A DNA stretch of 23,059 bases from a virus: IMG/VR virus record IMGVR_UViG_3300028025_000239, positions 1 to 23,059 of that record; one strand, written 5' to 3'. Below the pieces are notes generated by a model that did no database searches, had not been told where the DNA came from, and saw only the letters and a list, made by a program, of their open reading frames with translations. Made by a program: the position numbers and the translations under genes. Below, one piece after another: positions 2,193 through 19,423 of this stretch. The stretch's first letter is position 1. Every line of letters begins with the position of its first letter.

Positions 2193-2695
2193 TTTTTAAG
2201 CATCCCTTCAATTTCTTTAGTTTTGTCTTTGCTGCCTTGGCTTGATCCAAAGTAAAAAGATAAGACTTGACCTGCGCTACTGGTAATAAATCCAAGCGCA
2301 AAGATCACCATTTGCTGTTGATCTACAGGTACATCTTTAAACATCAAAATACCAATAAAACTAAACGCTAAAGTTACCGTACCAAGCGCAAGCAGGGGGA
2401 CTACCGACTTATCCAGCTTAGTAGCGTGTTCGCTTGTGGCTACGGCTGCGTACGCTTGGCGGGCAGAATCACGGTCTTGAGCGTCTAATTTGGCGTATTC
2501 AAGGTCAAGTTCCTTCAGCTTCATTGCCATCTCAGGATTGCCAGTCAAAGCGGCTGTAACGCCTTCTATTGTGTCATCGGGTATGCCTAGCTTAGAAGCG
2601 ATCCAGCCCACAGCAGCACCCCCAGCAGGGCCAGCAACAGCAGTAGCCAAGACAGGAGCAACACCTTTAAGTAGTCCAAGTAAAGTTTCCATCAT
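2189..2695 (-). CDS. three-TM holin (gene-transfer-agent holin type)
   Basis: 168 residues. Hydrophobic segments are at about 8-35, 98-118 and 128-150. The middle is charged and helical, with DLEYAKLDAQDRDSARQAYA, and the tail has FYFGSSQGSKDKTKEIE. This pattern matches the 3-TM holin family found in gene transfer agents and many proteobacterial phages. It should form the membrane lesion that lets the GH19 endolysin out, and its position directly upstream of that gene agrees. Two adjacent ATGs are possible (2695 and 2692). The first overlaps the previous stop as ATGA. The first segment is rich in Gly and Ala and could be partly amphipathic. Confidence 0.85.
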   Translation of the reverse strand: MMETLLGLLKGVAPVLATAVAGPAGGAAVGWIASKLGIPDDTIEGVTAALTGNPEMAMKLKELDLEYAKLDAQDRDSARQAYAAVATSEHATKLDKSVVPLLALGTVTLAFSFIGILMFKDVPVDQQQMVIFALGFITSSAGQVLSFYFGSSQGSKDKTKEIEGMLKK

Positions 2696-3132
2696 TTATC
2701 ACCCCAAACAATAGCCCACGCTATCCAACCTGCTACCAGTAAGCACATTAACTGCGCCCTACGAATATTCTTTAAATCACCGTCATATTTCTGTTTTTCT
2801 TCTTTTTCCAGCTTTTCTAGTTCGTTCTTTATCTTCAAGATTTCAGCCCATTCTTTCTCGCCTAGCGCAGTATTCTTGAATTGTCGCAAGAACTCTACCT
2901 TTAAGGAATACTCCTCATGGCTAATAAGTTTGCGCTGACGGTATTCAGCTAAAGCCTTGTGTATTGCTAAACGCTGCTTTACTTGTGCTTCTTTTTTAGC
3001 CCGTAATCTATCTTTGGCTAGTTGTGTTGCTACATCCGTTCCGTCTTTTTGGAACGCTTCTACTTGTTTAGTTAATGACTTGGCACTTTCCCTAGCTGAA
3101 TCAAGGCTGTCTGTAAGGGTTTTGACATCCAC
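2692..3132 (-). CDS. coiled-coil protein with C-terminal membrane anchor, lysis region
   Basis: 146 residues from the GTG at 3132, which sits 1 nt after the preceding TAA as elsewhere in this operon; a TTG at 3147 would add five residues. Residues 5-50 and 75-125 are charged, heptad-like helices (ILKIKNELEKLEKEEKQKYD). One membrane segment at about 126-143 is followed by a short GDK end. It lies between another tail-anchored protein and the holin. It could be an antiholin, a spanin substitute or a pinholin partner. There is no lipobox and no N-terminal signal, so classical o-spanin and i-spanin labels do not fit. The family is not recognised. Confidence 0.72.
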   Translation of the reverse strand: MDVKTLTDSLDSARESAKSLTKQVEAFQKDGTDVATQLAKDRLRAKKEAQVKQRLAIHKALAEYRQRKLISHEEYSLKVEFLRQFKNTALGEKEWAEILKIKNELEKLEKEEKQKYDGDLKNIRRAQLMCLLVAGWIAWAIVWGDK

Positions 3133-5398: not shown

Positions 5399-5655
5399 AC
5401 CGTTCCTTTCGGATACTTATCTTTTACTGCTTGAATTTGTGCTTTCCATGCGTCTAAACCGTCATGAAAGATGGTGTCAAACTGGTCTGCAAATGATGGG
5501 TATTCGGCTTGTCGTTTGTCTTTATAGGCATTGGCATCAATATAAGCCTGTAACGCAGCTTGGTCGTATGTGACTTCGTTACCATTAGCATCGTAAGCAA
5601 CATCGCCATTAGTTGTGACAATATTTGGATATAGTGTTCTTAATGCATCACTCAT
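5395..5655 (-). CDS. small fibre-associated protein (phage EYPS/DQFD family)
   Basis: 86 residues. The C-terminal half contains KDKRQAEYPSFADQFDTIFH and then AWKAQIQAVKDKYPKG, a combination that recurs in small proteins near tail fibres of cyanophages and other aquatic phages. The N-terminal half has LRTLYPNIVTTNGDVAYDAN, a beta hairpin. Role unproven; a fibre assembly chaperone or a connector is the usual guess. Both ends overlap neighbours by 4 nt (ATGA), between paralogue A and the 345-residue fibre. Confidence 0.75.
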   Translation of the reverse strand: MSDALRTLYPNIVTTNGDVAYDANGNEVTYDQAALQAYIDANAYKDKRQAEYPSFADQFDTIFHDGLDAWKAQIQAVKDKYPKGTV

Positions 5656-6239
5656 GCCGCAATCTCCATTAAAGTAATTGTTGATGCAAACCTACCAACA
5701 CCACCATTGTCACCATCAGATTGGCTTCTATTAAAATAAAATGTTCCGCTTTCAATGCGGAATTGCAATTTATAAGTAGTAGAAGAAGTTGTAGCTGGCG
5801 AGTCTAAAAAATTAATTGATATACATTCAGATTGACCCGAATCAAGTTGGTAAGCATTTGTTGTTGCTGGTGACCTACTGCCTGCCGCATCTCCAACATC
5901 AATAGCCGTGCTTCCTCTTATTAACCTAATTATTGAACCACTAACACTAGCTTGACCGCTACAAGTAGCTGATGCCAATACAAGTATTTTGCTCGAAGAA
6001 CTTGTAGGTGTAATACTTGCTGACATACCAGTAATATCGGTAAAAGCCCCAGTTGCAGAAGAAGTAAATGCATCTGTTTTTGTCACGCTAACCACTTGCA
6101 AAACGCTACCAGCAGGTCTATTGCCTGTGGTGATAATAGTTCCGCTTACAGCAGGTAATGTCTGCGTAAAGTTACTAGCAGTTGCTGGCTCTTGGATGGT
6201 GATTTGTCCACCACCGCTGGATTGTAAAACTAGGCTCAT
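5652..6239 (-). CDS. tail fibre-like protein, paralogue A
   Basis: 195 residues from ATG 6239, chosen because it overlaps the preceding stop (ATGA); a GTG four codons upstream is possible. The leader MSLVLQSSGGGQITIQ, then PATASNFTQTLPAVSGTI is a common phage fibre N-terminus. After that come PAGSVLQVVSVTKTD, SASITPTSSSSK, LDSPATTSSTTY and the end TITLMEIAA, shared with paralogue B (3620-4195). It probably belongs to a trimeric, beta-rich virion appendage. The pair suggests gene duplication followed by divergence of the central region. Confidence 0.8.
   Translation of the reverse strand: MSLVLQSSGGGQITIQEPATASNFTQTLPAVSGTIITTGNRPAGSVLQVVSVTKTDAFTSSATGAFTDITGMSASITPTSSSSKILVLASATCSGQASVSGSIIRLIRGSTAIDVGDAAGSRSPATTNAYQLDSGQSECISINFLDSPATTSSTTYKLQFRIESGTFYFNRSQSDGDNGGVGRFASTITLMEIAA
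6091..6116. repeat. near-identical 26-nt segment shared by the two fibre paralogues (copy A)
   Basis: Second copy of the segment at 4065-4090, differing at one base, in the same orientation and reading frame of paralogue A. Confidence 0.75.
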
Positions 6240-6811
6240 AATATGACCCACCTTTGTGTTGAAGGAATTGTTACCGTTACCCCTGAGTTTACTGTAATTG
6301 GGCCTACCGATTCAGCATTTTTTCCAGTAGAAAGCGTGTAATTTGTTGTTACCGTTACACCGTTTTCAACGAAAACTTCGTCACCGCCACCACCAGTAGC
6401 ACCACCGCCTAATTGACCCCATGCACCGCCTTGGTAGCCTTCAAATTGTGAAGTGTCTGTGTTGTAGCGGATTTCACCGTTTACTGGGCTTACTGGTCGT
6501 TGTGCTGTAGTTCCTTTTGGAATCAGCATAAAGCCTGTACCTGTAAATACAGGGTTTACAAAAGCAGTAGTAAATTGGGTGTATTCAACAGCATCACCAG
6601 CTACCGAACCTGCAACTAAATTAACCGCTTTATGGGTATTTAAGTCTAAATTACCCGTCATTGGGGTTTGGCCGTCTGCCGCTACTGAATCAGTAAGAGC
6701 AGCAGCCAAGTCATTCATGGTGTTATTTGCCCATGATGAACTAATCGTAGTTTGGGTTACTACTGGATTACCTGCAGGGAGCGAATAAACTCCCGATCCG
6801 TTTCTTGACAT
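6236..6811 (-). CDS. tail fibre protein with modular repeats and RWVIL C-terminus
   Basis: 191 residues in three recognisable modules. Residues 1-60 (SRNGSGVYSLPAGNPVVTQT, then WANNTMNDLAAALTDS) are a frequent phage fibre head. Residues 97-138 hold the IPKGTTAQRPVSPVNGEIRY and GYQGGAWGQLGGG module seen in many fibres. Residues 145-191 form a beta-strand tail ending SVGPITVNSGVTVTIPSTQR-WVIL. The same tail closes the 745-residue protein encoded at 19423-21660. The protein is short for a fibre, so it may be an adaptor or a tip protein. ATG 6811 overlaps the previous stop as TAATG. Confidence 0.82.
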   Translation of the reverse strand: MSRNGSGVYSLPAGNPVVTQTTISSSWANNTMNDLAAALTDSVAADGQTPMTGNLDLNTHKAVNLVAGSVAGDAVEYTQFTTAFVNPVFTGTGFMLIPKGTTAQRPVSPVNGEIRYNTDTSQFEGYQGGAWGQLGGGATGGGGDEVFVENGVTVTTNYTLSTGKNAESVGPITVNSGVTVTIPSTQRWVIL

Positions 6812-15551: not shown

Positions 15552-16532
15552 TTAAGTACCGCTCAAAATACCTTGCAAGGATGCGTTAGAGCAGGTTAAG
15601 TTACCAGCCCAACCGTACAACTTCACGATTGCATCTTGATTGATAGATTGACGCTCGCCACCGATAGGAACAAAATTACGCTCTTTGTGTGGACGGAAGA
15701 AGATGTAATTGGTGTTCAAGAGGTACATATACAATGGGTTCTCTTGTGCGCCAATACCACCACCTAGTACTACATCAGCAGACATACCACCACCGTAGAA
15801 CTTGAGGGATGCGAAACCTGCTGCGCCTTCGTCTACGCCAGCAATACGCTGAATTGCTTGCAAAGAAGCTACATAACGCTGATACAAAGTGTTACCAGCA
15901 ATAATAAGGTCTACCTTATCAGTACCACGAACAGATTTGATTGCAGCAGTTGTCATAGCAGCTTGGATCAATGTGGAAGAATCAGCACCCGTAGTTGCTT
16001 GGTTCTGCCAAAATGCCCAGTTTGCACGATTAATACCACCGTATGTACCAGTGGTTGGTGAAGTGCTGACAGCAGCGGCTAGACCTGTGATGTTCTTACC
16101 ACCGTTACCAGTACCGTCACCATACAAGTCACCCGAAATGCGGTTAAGCAGACGAGCCTCAGAAACTTGCATACGACCATCAAGAAGGTCGATGATTGCT
16201 TCTTTGCTGCTGTTTTGGAGCATTTCTAGACCGCTCATGGTTACTGAGTCAGCATACTGCGTAATGCTGAACTGAGCAGCCGAGATTGGGCTATCAGGAG
16301 TGATGTTCAGCACTTCATAGCCGCTATACGAGTTAGCGTTATTGGTTGCTGGGTCGTTGTACATGATTTCTTCCAAAATCACATTACCGCCTGAAAATGG
16401 GCGTACATTACCTTTGGAACTTAAACGCTGCAAAATTGCATTGTTTTGCGTTAAGTTGTCTGCCAATACTCCGCTACGACTTTGAATGGTGGTAGCGATA
16501 ATATCGGTGATTGCGCTATTTGCGAATGCCAT
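15552..16532 (-). CDS. major capsid protein
   Basis: 326 residues. Position after a scaffold-like gene, length and internal pattern point to the major head protein, presumably with the HK97 fold. Seen in order: helical N-arm (AITDIIATTIQSRSGVLADN), FSGGNVILEEIMYNDPAT (47-64), a spine-helix region with KEAIIDLLDGRMQVSEARLL (109-128), GDLYGDGTGNGGKNITGL (134-151), NRANWAFWQN and the terminal strands NYIFFRPHKERNFVPIG. It should form the procapsid with the scaffold encoded just upstream. ATG 16532 has an AAAGGA site with 6-nt spacing. No protease gene lies nearby, so processing as in classical HK97 is not indicated. Confidence 0.88.
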   Translation of the reverse strand: MAFANSAITDIIATTIQSRSGVLADNLTQNNAILQRLSSKGNVRPFSGGNVILEEIMYNDPATNNANSYSGYEVLNITPDSPISAAQFSITQYADSVTMSGLEMLQNSSKEAIIDLLDGRMQVSEARLLNRISGDLYGDGTGNGGKNITGLAAAVSTSPTTGTYGGINRANWAFWQNQATTGADSSTLIQAAMTTAAIKSVRGTDKVDLIIAGNTLYQRYVASLQAIQRIAGVDEGAAGFASLKFYGGGMSADVVLGGGIGAQENPLYMYLLNTNYIFFRPHKERNFVPIGGERQSINQDAIVKLYGWAGNLTCSNASLQGILSGT

Positions 16533-17655: not shown

Positions 17656-18054
17656 CTATCGGTAGTTAAGTTTGGAGTAAGCAATCTCAGCAATCTGCCG
17701 TTTACGGGCTTCTTGCTCTTTACGGCTAAATTCAATGGGTTTTTGCTGCATTGGCACATCATTACCGATTTCTACGCAATTATTCCGTTTAAGGTTTTCA
17801 CGGTGCTTAGATCGACTAGACACCCATGTACCGTCAGCCATGCTTATGTGGCCTTCAATGTCAGGAATAACCATAGGTGCTTCTTTTGGCGTCATTTCCA
17901 GCTTTTGCCGCCATGCTTTATCCGCTTCTTCCCCTTCAAACGGTAAGTTCCAATAAGCAAGGTACTTTTCACGGTCATCAAACTGCTTTTCGTCATATTC
18001 TTCGTGCGCTACCTTGCAGCATGGGCAAGTTACGCTGATTTTTACCAACGCCAT
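17656..18054 (-). CDS. conserved small phage protein with CPCC and HRENLKR motifs
   Basis: 132 residues. The N-terminus carries CPCC (10-13) and His17, a possible half metal site, though a second Cys pair is missing (only C93 remains). The conserved block is VIPDIEGHISMADGTWVSSR (62-81) followed by SKHRENLKRNNCVEIGND (82-99). I know this block, SRSxHRExLK with xVExGN, from phage proteins encoded near terminase or capsid genes, without a proven role. The C-terminal helix is basic (RKEQEARKRQ). ATG 18054 overlaps the glycosyltransferase stop as TAATG. It could be an assembly cofactor or a nucleic-acid-binding protein. Confidence 0.75.
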   Translation of the reverse strand: MALVKISVTCPCCKVAHEEYDEKQFDDREKYLAYWNLPFEGEEADKAWRQKLEMTPKEAPMVIPDIEGHISMADGTWVSSRSKHRENLKRNNCVEIGNDVPMQQKPIEFSRKEQEARKRQIAEIAYSKLNYR

Positions 18055-18962
18055 TACATTCTCCTTAAAATTTCAGGTAATTGATCGTATTCATCAGGCC
18101 TAAGTAGGCAAATACTGTCGTACCAACGGGCATTTTTCCACCGCCAGCATACAAATTCTTCTTTAGGCAGCAAAACTACGCATTTAACGCCCAAAGCACC
18201 TGCCAAGTGTGCTGTTCCTGTGTCTACCGTAACCACGCCCCGCATAGCCTTCATATGTTTAGCGGTAATTGACCAGTCTTTCTTCCATCCATCGTTAGGC
18301 AATGGCCTAAAGTTGCCATCAGTTTCAGGGTTTAGGCTGTAAACATCGTCACCCACCAGCTTTTCCATGTGTTCTGCGGATATAGACTTAATCCATTGCA
18401 AATTGCCCTTGCTTGCTGACCAATTTACGCCTATCTTTTTGGGAATATTACTGGGTTCAGCCTCAAAATAACCCTCTGATCCGACAATTTTCTTCGAATT
18501 TACGGGAAATAATGCCTTAACATACGGCATAGCGCAGTCAATGTAATACGGTAGCGACATTGATCCAATCCAGTAGTCGCATTCATGGGCTGGCCCTGCT
18601 TCTGTAAGGTTCGTAAGCTGGTCAATACACTCCATTTGCCCTAACACGCCAAACAATGCAGGTATAGTCAAAACTACCACCTTTTTTGCACCTAAAACCT
18701 TTAGGGCTGGCAGGAATCTAGCGTATTGGAATATATCGCCAAAGCCTTGTTCCATCTGCACTACGATGGTTTTATCTAACAAGGATTCACCCTGCCATGT
18801 TTTAGGGGCTACGGGCAGTCTTGCATACGGAATGATTTGGTTGGCAAGTATGTCTTTATGCCAGCGATACTCAAATAGCCTAAATCCAGCAGCGTACCTG
18901 CCAGCGTGTAAGTTGTCGTAGGCTAACTTATATTGTGCGTGTGGGTTTAAAGCAGTAGTAAT
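18054..18962 (-). CDS. GT9/GT41-like glycosyltransferase with remnant TPR N-terminus
   Basis: 302 residues if started at ATT 18962. The frame is open from 18971 and contains no ATG, GTG or TTG until TTG 18782. Upstream residues already match the family: LHAGRYAAGFRLFEYRWH (18-35, a TPR-like helix pair) and WQGESLLDKTIVVQ (56-69). Then follow EQGFGDIFQYARFLP (71-85), IGVNWSA, and the sugar-nucleotide region VVTVDTGTAHLAGALGVK (243-260) with WRWKNARWYDS. These are hallmarks of TPR-linked or heptosyltransferase-like enzymes that move a sugar from a nucleotide donor. GAGG lies 7 nt before the ATT. Its gene overlaps the AFQ-protein gene by 16 nt and the next gene by TAATG. The acceptor may be a virion protein or a host surface glycan. 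Confidence 0.82.
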   Translation of the reverse strand: MTTALNPHAQYKLAYDNLHAGRYAAGFRLFEYRWHKDILANQIIPYARLPVAPKTWQGESLLDKTIVVQMEQGFGDIFQYARFLPALKVLGAKKVVVLTIPALFGVLGQMECIDQLTNLTEAGPAHECDYWIGSMSLPYYIDCAMPYVKALFPVNSKKIVGSEGYFEAEPSNIPKKIGVNWSASKGNLQWIKSISAEHMEKLVGDDVYSLNPETDGNFRPLPNDGWKKDWSITAKHMKAMRGVVTVDTGTAHLAGALGVKCVVLLPKEEFVCWRWKNARWYDSICLLRPDEYDQLPEILRRM

Positions 18963-19423
18963 ATTGCAGCCTCATCGTCAAGTTCCTCTTGGCGTTTGGC
19001 TTCTAACACTTGTAACTCGTATTGGATTCGAGCCACTTCGTTTCTGTAAGCTACTGCCGCAAGGATGTTATCCCGTTGTCGTTCAAGGTAGCTTATAGAC
19101 CGCTGTAAATCTTCTGTTTCAGCTAACGGTATATCAGCTTTAACCTCTTGTTTAGATTGTACTTTAGGTTGCTTAACTTTAGCAACAGGATCAATCAAAT
19201 TCTTAAATGCTTGCTTGCGTGAAGCGTTGGCATCTTTGGTAGCTTTTTCTAACAGGCGTTGGCGTTCAGCAATCTTCTGCTGTAGCTTTCTGATCCGCTT
19301 TAGTTCTTCAGGAGTCCAGCTTGCATCATCACCACCTACCTTTTGGTTATCAGGCGGTGGCGGGTTATAGACTTGGAAAGCGTTATTTTGAAACGCATTA
19401 GCCTGAAAAGCGGTAGAAAACAT
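18947..19423 (-). CDS. small virion-type protein with AFQ repeats and coiled coil
   Basis: 158 residues. The N-terminus has three AFQ repeats at a 5-residue period (AFQAN, AFQNN, AFQVY; 5-19), then PPPPD. Charged helices follow: PEELKRIRKLQQKIAERQRL (38-57) and SYLERQRDNILAAVAYRNEV, with RIQYELQVLEAKRQEELDDE. It ends AAILLLL, a hydrophobic cap. AFQ-repeat N-termini are common in small phage proteins near fibre genes, and this one follows the large fibre with a TAATG overlap. It may be a virion peptide or a docking segment for the fibre. The function is not established. Confidence 0.75.
   Translation of the reverse strand: MFSTAFQANAFQNNAFQVYNPPPPDNQKVGGDDASWTPEELKRIRKLQQKIAERQRLLEKATKDANASRKQAFKNLIDPVAKVKQPKVQSKQEVKADIPLAETEDLQRSISYLERQRDNILAAVAYRNEVARIQYELQVLEAKRQEELDDEAAILLLL

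Follow-up and report, generated by a model that had tools for sequence, protein, structure and literature searches.

Non-canonical start codons in bacteria and phages

Besides infC, a few bacterial genes are known to be translated from AUU. IF3 represses non-canonical starts, and infC, autoregulated by IF3, is a rare well-characterised gene that has one (PMC5472188). Overproduction of IF3 also reduces re-initiation, with a smaller effect when a Shine-Dalgarno (SD) sequence is present (PMC2268962). In Staphylococcus aureus reporters, AUU and AUA starts gave about 10% of the output of AUG in poor medium (PMC13009471), and the AUU start of Escherichia coli pcnB is said to limit translation, according to a title cited in the same article. 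The sigR gene of Streptomyces starts with GTC in 32 of 34 genomes and with GTT in the other two, and is repressed by IF3 (PMC5472188). For phages, literature searches of titles and abstract openings, with partial coverage, found no gene with an AUU or ATT start, and none was found in the articles on SPP1 (PMC6316719) and phage M (PMC3561173).

The phage glycosyltransferase (GT) gene described here would share its AUU start with infC of E. coli and with pcnB, but pcnB is cellular and the product of infC is IF3 itself, in a feedback loop, while the GT start lies within the preceding gene, AFQ. Like S. aureus cvfC1 (AUU) and ccpN (AUA), it has a conserved non-canonical start; those two are cellular genes with a strong, extended SD and ribosome profiling evidence (PMC13009471), whereas the phage gene has a GAGG. 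The start of sigR is also conserved, but it is another codon in a cellular sigma factor gene, and unlike its GTC/GTT pair no codon besides ATT was found in the 216 overlapping junctions of the phage clade. Finally, the same-strand overlap recalls ATGA overlaps and the gene pairs that work by termination-reinitiation. Actually, one sister type of the AFQ/GT pair is ATGA, but in the AUU clade GT would start 7-19 nt ahead of the AFQ stop and with its own GAGG.

The AFQ/GT junction in the window

The window, i.e. the whole 23-kb stretch of DNA analysed, is a virus record whose classification was taken from IMG/VR. Its minus strand carries a row of genes coding for the portal, a tail-fibre-like protein, AFQ, GT, a 132-aa protein, a 363-aa protein and the major head protein. 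The 363-aa protein had no PHROG match and is a putative scaffold by its position. The major head protein (15552-16532) shares about 50% identity with its counterparts in Myxococcus phage Mx8 and Stenotrophomonas phage BUCT555, and reached at most 52.5% identity (Mx8) to any phage in the collection searched. No tRNA genes were found in the window. A 34-kb contig (L002) comes from the same or a near-identical phage and codes for an identical GT protein.

All features of the junction lie on the minus strand. AFQ (18947..19423, 158 aa) ends at a TAA (18947..18949); in the window and in three relatives (L022, L183 and L197) the C-terminus of the protein is conserved and its N-terminus varies greatly, with either AFQ repeats or long ones resembling TDxNDTA. 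The C-terminal codons of AFQ contain both a GAGG resembling an SD sequence (18970..18973), within the codons for DDE, and, after a 7-nt spacer, the single ATT ahead of the AFQ stop (18960..18962) that is the proposed start codon of GT. From this ATT, GT (18054..18962) has 302 codons and a TAA stop (18056-18054), and overlaps AFQ by 16 nt (18947..18962). Its frame is -1 relative to that of AFQ and is bounded upstream by a TGA (18972..18974), so that both frames are open from TGA 18974 to TAA 18947. Between this TGA and the first ordinary in-frame start codon, a TTG at 18780..18782, there are 63 codons without ATG, GTG or TTG. This is the longest such stretch in the window among stop-to-stop frames of at least 140 codons, followed by AFQ itself (41 codons, overlapping the preceding gene), the portal gene (32, cut by the contig end) and 5652-6311 (20). 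The first-pass annotation of this DNA had described the open frame, the TTG, the ATT, the GAGG 7 nt ahead of it and the 16-nt overlap, and all its coordinates were correct.

The glycosyltransferase and its N-terminus

The AlphaFold2 model of GT had a mean pLDDT of 91.6. Among solved folds it matched best GT9 enzymes and heptosyltransferases, with Z scores of 14.5-15.8 in the best eight rows (3tov_B, Z 15.8 over 224 residues, rmsd 3.1; 1psw, Z 15.4 over 223 residues, rmsd 3.6; TibC 4rb4_J, Z 14.7). This structure comparison places the GT-B catalytic region at about residues 58-302 (18057..18791). At the sequence level the similarity to Pfam Glyco_transf_9 (PF01075) was 19 bits, below the gathering cut-off of 22, and no PDB sequence matched the profile used at E 0.01. 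A search of the phage collection with GT gave two distant matches, and a scan of genome contigs found no relative. Judging from the model, the protein is a GT9-like enzyme with an extra helical N-terminus. It has the GT-B fold in common with GT9 glycosyltransferases and the heptosyltransferase TibC, but it scores under the Pfam cut-off for GT9 and adds a helical hairpin at residues 7-34 (18861..18944; predicted helices 7-19 and 23-34), which a start at TTG 18782 would remove.

In an alignment of 62 proteins from both the AUU clade and its sister clades, residues L18, H19, G21, G26, F27, E31, R33, W34, H35, W56 and G58 were invariant, all of them ahead of residue 61, the position of TTG 18782. 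The codon-position entropy of 88 sequences indicates where this constraint begins. In GT residues 2-5 the means at positions 1, 2 and 3 were 1.42, 0.72 and 0.21, which is the constraint of the AFQ frame, while the coding-type pattern in the GT frame was visible from about residue 6 and strong from residue 11. Since the AFQ-type constraint covers residues 2-5 and the coding constraint comes only after them, the ATT is invariant on its own, the pattern that a start codon should show. Whether conservation begins at the ATT had been posed as a check in the first-pass annotation; the codon itself is kept in 216 of 216 junctions, but at the protein level conservation begins at about residue 6.

Conservation of the ATT codon among relatives

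Relatives were collected from IMG/VR with five GT queries, the AFQ alignment and a GT of a sister clade, and the junctions counted are those of related metagenomic contigs. All counts rest on the matches listed, at most 80 loci per scan (for one GT query, the best 80 of 346). A first count gave 188 distinct loci, 186 of them with the upstream stop in the examined DNA. ATT was the sole candidate start in 183 of these 186; two had an ATG (L036 and L038) and one neither (L044). The search motif had missed 13 other loci, one of which (L190) was cut; the 12 covering the region all had the ATT, and none of them was dropped when the fuller count was made.

This fuller count started from 485 loci, from which we set aside the window itself (L001) and a distant marine virus (L326). 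Another 25 lacking the AFQ end plus the GT motif were dropped, including some loci of the ATGA type, truncated contigs, and L038, L044, L332 and L371. The 458 remaining loci collapsed, after merging identical junctions, into 267 distinct ones, 216 of the overlap type and 51 with an ATG start. Three of the former (L152, L153 and L233, initially in a class with a late NTG) were moved into the AUU clade after reading, raising it from 213 to 216, and L344, L392 and L422 were likewise assigned to the gap class described below.

Among the matches listed, all 216 distinct overlap-type junctions had an ATT, located 10-19 nt ahead of the stop codon of AFQ, and in 213 there was no ATG, GTG or TTG up to the conserved LHxGR motif; the other three had one TTG, 23 nt past the start of the AFQ stop and just inside the conserved region. 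The upstream end of the GT frame was a TGA in 216 of 216, separated from the last ATT by 9-15 nt. In the same set of matches 210 junctions had a GAGG no more than 18 nt from the last ATT, with a spacer of 7 nt in 152, 4 in 36, 10 in 14 and 13 in 8; five of the six remaining junctions had GAGAG or GAGAC and one had CAGG. Counted from the last ATT, the overlap was 16 nt in 103 junctions, 19 in 90, 13 in 15 and 10 in 8. Two or three ATT codons precede the AFQ stop in 82 of the 216, so that in those the exact start ATT is ambiguous. The proposal that GT begins upstream of the ordinary start codons, possibly at AUU, is thus borne out at the level of sequence by the universal ATT, the GAGG and the lack of any alternative start, and GT in the window phage is very probably translated from the AUU at 18962-18960.

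The invariance of the ATT has to be read together with the AFQ frame. The ATT takes its A from the third position of an AFQ codon, which ends in A in 216 of 216 (TTA 84, CTA 67, ATA 46, GTA 19), and the following AFQ codon, containing the other two bases, is TTA in 203, TTG in 7 and TTT in 6. Double coding, with Ile in one frame and Leu in the other, would alone force an ATT here, so its invariance is by itself no proof of initiation, and the argument for the AUU start comes mainly from the absence of any other. Elsewhere in the 3' region of AFQ, Leu and Ile codons end in every letter. Five other GT columns have at least 90% Ile; ATT, ATC and ATA occur side by side in four of them, and ATA predominates in the fifth.

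A tree was built by a quick method, with SH-aLRT supports only, from 113 representatives of 270 proteins, which were clustered at 93% within each type with one taken per cluster. The AUU clade makes up one side of a starred branch, with three departures (L036, L038 and L044). Over its 89 AUU representatives there were no changes at the three ATT positions, partly by construction because the last ATT was picked at each locus. The wobble base right after the ATT changed 5 times, and seven other sampled AFQ wobble positions changed 13 to 38 times. AUU was retained over a tree length of about 12.5 amino-acid changes per site.

We also considered a conserved RNA structure around the start and rejected it, given that the window junction folded no better than its shuffles (single-sequence z 0.72). 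A consensus fold of the junction had no predicted pairs in 18 aligned sequences, and Rfam gave nothing at gathering threshold in four sources.

Relatives with an ATG start

The GT proteins of the sister clades are about 50-56% identical to that of the window and have the same AFQ gene upstream, but start with ATG, located at the aligned position in 57 of 59 distinct loci; the other two (L476 and L477) have, by eye, an ATGA overlap further upstream. Relatives with an ATG, which the first-pass annotation had suggested looking for, therefore do exist in the sister clades, while those of the overlap type keep the ATT and have no ATG there.

The 51 ATG-start junctions (50 from sister clades, plus L036) belong to two types. 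In the ATGA-overlap type the AFQ stop is TGA in 28 of 28 and GAGG is absent within 18 nt of the ATG in all of them. In the gap type, with about 20-44 nt between the genes, it is TAA in 23 of 23; this type includes L036, although its GT belongs to the AUU clade. The mean predicted pairing with the anti-SD of E. coli was -6.3 kcal/mol before AUU, +0.5 in the ATGA type and -2.9 in the gap type. An in-frame ATT in the AFQ tail was found in only 6 of the 51 ATG-start junctions (45 without), against 216 of 216 of the overlap type. The acidic, Leu-rich AFQ tail is recognisable in every junction type, which argues that the ATT is not demanded by the AFQ protein.

The three departures within the AUU clade are of different kinds. 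L036 has a gap and an ATG, and by eye its junction resembles the gap junctions of the sister clades. In L038 an HNH endonuclease gene (2516-3004; PF13392, E 4.3e-13) is inserted between AFQ and GT, whose ATG overlaps the end of the inserted gene. The AFQ tails of these two loci have no ATT in that frame and read ATT CTG and TTG ATG instead of NTA TTA. L044 has a non-coding insertion, and its AFQ end is outside the examined DNA: positions 1-640, at the contig end, are a long stretch without an AFQ end in place of the junction. This locus also has a weak match to LOOT RNA on the opposite strand (22.3 bits against a gathering threshold of 46.4).

Several other arrangements were seen. A sister-clade locus (L429) has an ORF at 2072-2530, HNH-like as judged from its sequence, between AFQ and GT, and the GT ATG overlaps its end. 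In some gap-type junctions (L415, just upstream of 3001) there is by eye a short leader ORF behind an AAGGAG, with a stop that overlaps the GT ATG. Neither in L332 (after 3468) nor in L371 (after 3447) did the examined stretch contain a recognisable GT, and a gene of the 132-aa type comes after AFQ; L332 retains GAGG and ATTATTA in AFQ even so, which counts against the proposed start, as do the 6 ATG-start junctions with an ATT and the six overlap junctions that lack GAGG.

Alternative explanations of the junction

The alternative that survives best accepts the AUU start and sees no regulatory role in it: AUU would be tolerated because the Leu tail of AFQ permits no other start at that place. 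Any NTG there would turn the AFQ codon, mostly TTA, into TGA, TGC, TGT or TGG, making an ordinary start impossible at the exact place of the ATT; AUU is the start that lets AFQ keep its residue, since the change would give a stop, Cys or Trp. The overlap is also clearly under AFQ constraint, as the third positions of GT residues 2-5, with their low entropy, are the second positions of AFQ codons. However, a start slightly downstream is within easy reach. Four codons further on, an NTA codon of GT overlaps the stop of AFQ, and replacing the TAA stop by TGA, a change silent for AFQ, would give GT an ATG in 35 junctions, a GTG in 64 and a TTG in 54. In 153 of 213 junctions a single change that is silent for AFQ would thus create an ordinary start; such a start is present in 28 of 28 junctions of the ATGA type and in none of the 213 here, where among the matches listed the AFQ stop is TAA in 166, TAG in 47 and never TGA. 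On the tree, 14 switches of this stop between TAA and TAG and 31 changes at the preceding base were counted in 89 representatives, without a single TGA. These phages seldom use TGA as a stop in any case (84 of 1082 other ORFs of at least 110 aa on the same strand), so its absence at AFQ is suggestive only. Coding constraint as the sole cause of the AUU is weakened by these data, and we consider it possible but somewhat doubtful. The pattern is suggestive of selection against a canonical start in the AUU clade, and we lean slightly towards selection for a weak start, given the canonical one that lies an AFQ-silent change away and was not taken.

A second alternative does without initiation at AUU, with GT made as a fusion to AFQ by a programmed -1 frameshift, or through a +1 shift from a third-frame ATG near 18975. 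It would make use of the -1 relation and the shared open stretch of the two frames, and a third-frame ATG, GTG or TTG lies near the GAGG in 216 of 216 junctions. But the AFQ frame of the overlap contains no X XXY YYZ heptamer and no run of five like bases in any of the 216, the end of the third frame varies in position and falls before the AFQ stop in 144 of 216, no consensus structure was found in the 18 sequences folded, and the tRNA slips required would probably not pair. We regard frameshifting as very unlikely.

Still less credible is a start at TTG 18782 with a fortuitous open frame above it, even if the product would retain most of the catalytic core, which aligns from about residue 58-64. 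This TTG is found in only 19 of 210 aligned relatives (codon columns were counted in the 210 of the 216 with a GT longer than 270 codons), so that conservation only from the TTG, named beforehand as an observation that would speak against an upstream start, was not what we found. The region above it has the invariant residues and the confidently predicted helical hairpin, shows a coding-type codon-position pattern in residues 11-60, and is preceded in the sister clades by the ATG. Finally, a sequencing or assembly indel that removed an ordinary start, also raised as an objection at the outset and one that the window alone could not exclude, has a practically negligible probability, the same arrangement being present in 216 of 216 distinct junctions among the matches listed.

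Initiation at AUU, which we infer with high confidence, is derived from the position, frame and conservation of the ATT, the lack of alternatives and the contrast with the relatives that start with ATG.

Possible control of GT expression

In the mechanism that we propose, the GAGG within the AFQ codons for DDE would position the 30S subunit on the AUU, 7 nt downstream. The subunit may arrive directly or, in coupled initiation, once it has translated AFQ as far as the stop 13 nt beyond. The initiator tRNA pairs poorly with AUU, which would keep GT output low relative to its structural neighbours, and this output should vary with the stringency of IF3, to which the junction might be sensitive through two features, the AUU and the possible coupling. 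It is plausible that the weak start is kept for a low or IF3-sensitive GT output. The first-pass annotation had read the AUU as low-level, controlled expression of a modifying enzyme within a highly expressed operon; the start itself is strongly supported by the sequence comparisons, and the expression part is plausible, agreeing with the missing TGA stop of AFQ and with the low output of AUU and AUA starts in the S. aureus reporters.

Tentatively, the clade-wide AUU may be a long-maintained throttle that ties a virion- or host-modifying GT to IF3 stringency or to the state of the ribosomes. As an equally tentative part of this reading, the sister clades would throttle GT otherwise, by ATGA coupling without GAGG or by a gap with a short leader ORF. 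Such leader ORFs would fit a general need to hold GT down by different means.

A practical consequence is that gene finders limited to ATG, GTG and TTG will shorten GT, since in the window the first such codon is 63 codons in and invariant residues would be lost. The AUU group appears, from the contigs compared, to be a large group of uncultured phages with close relatives that use an ordinary AUG. The AFQ/GT family, in which one gene pair comes with three types of junction, is a natural experiment in the choice of a start codon. It opens two directly testable questions: why a weak start would be retained though a normal one is a single silent change away, and whether IF3 stringency may be a control input for phages.
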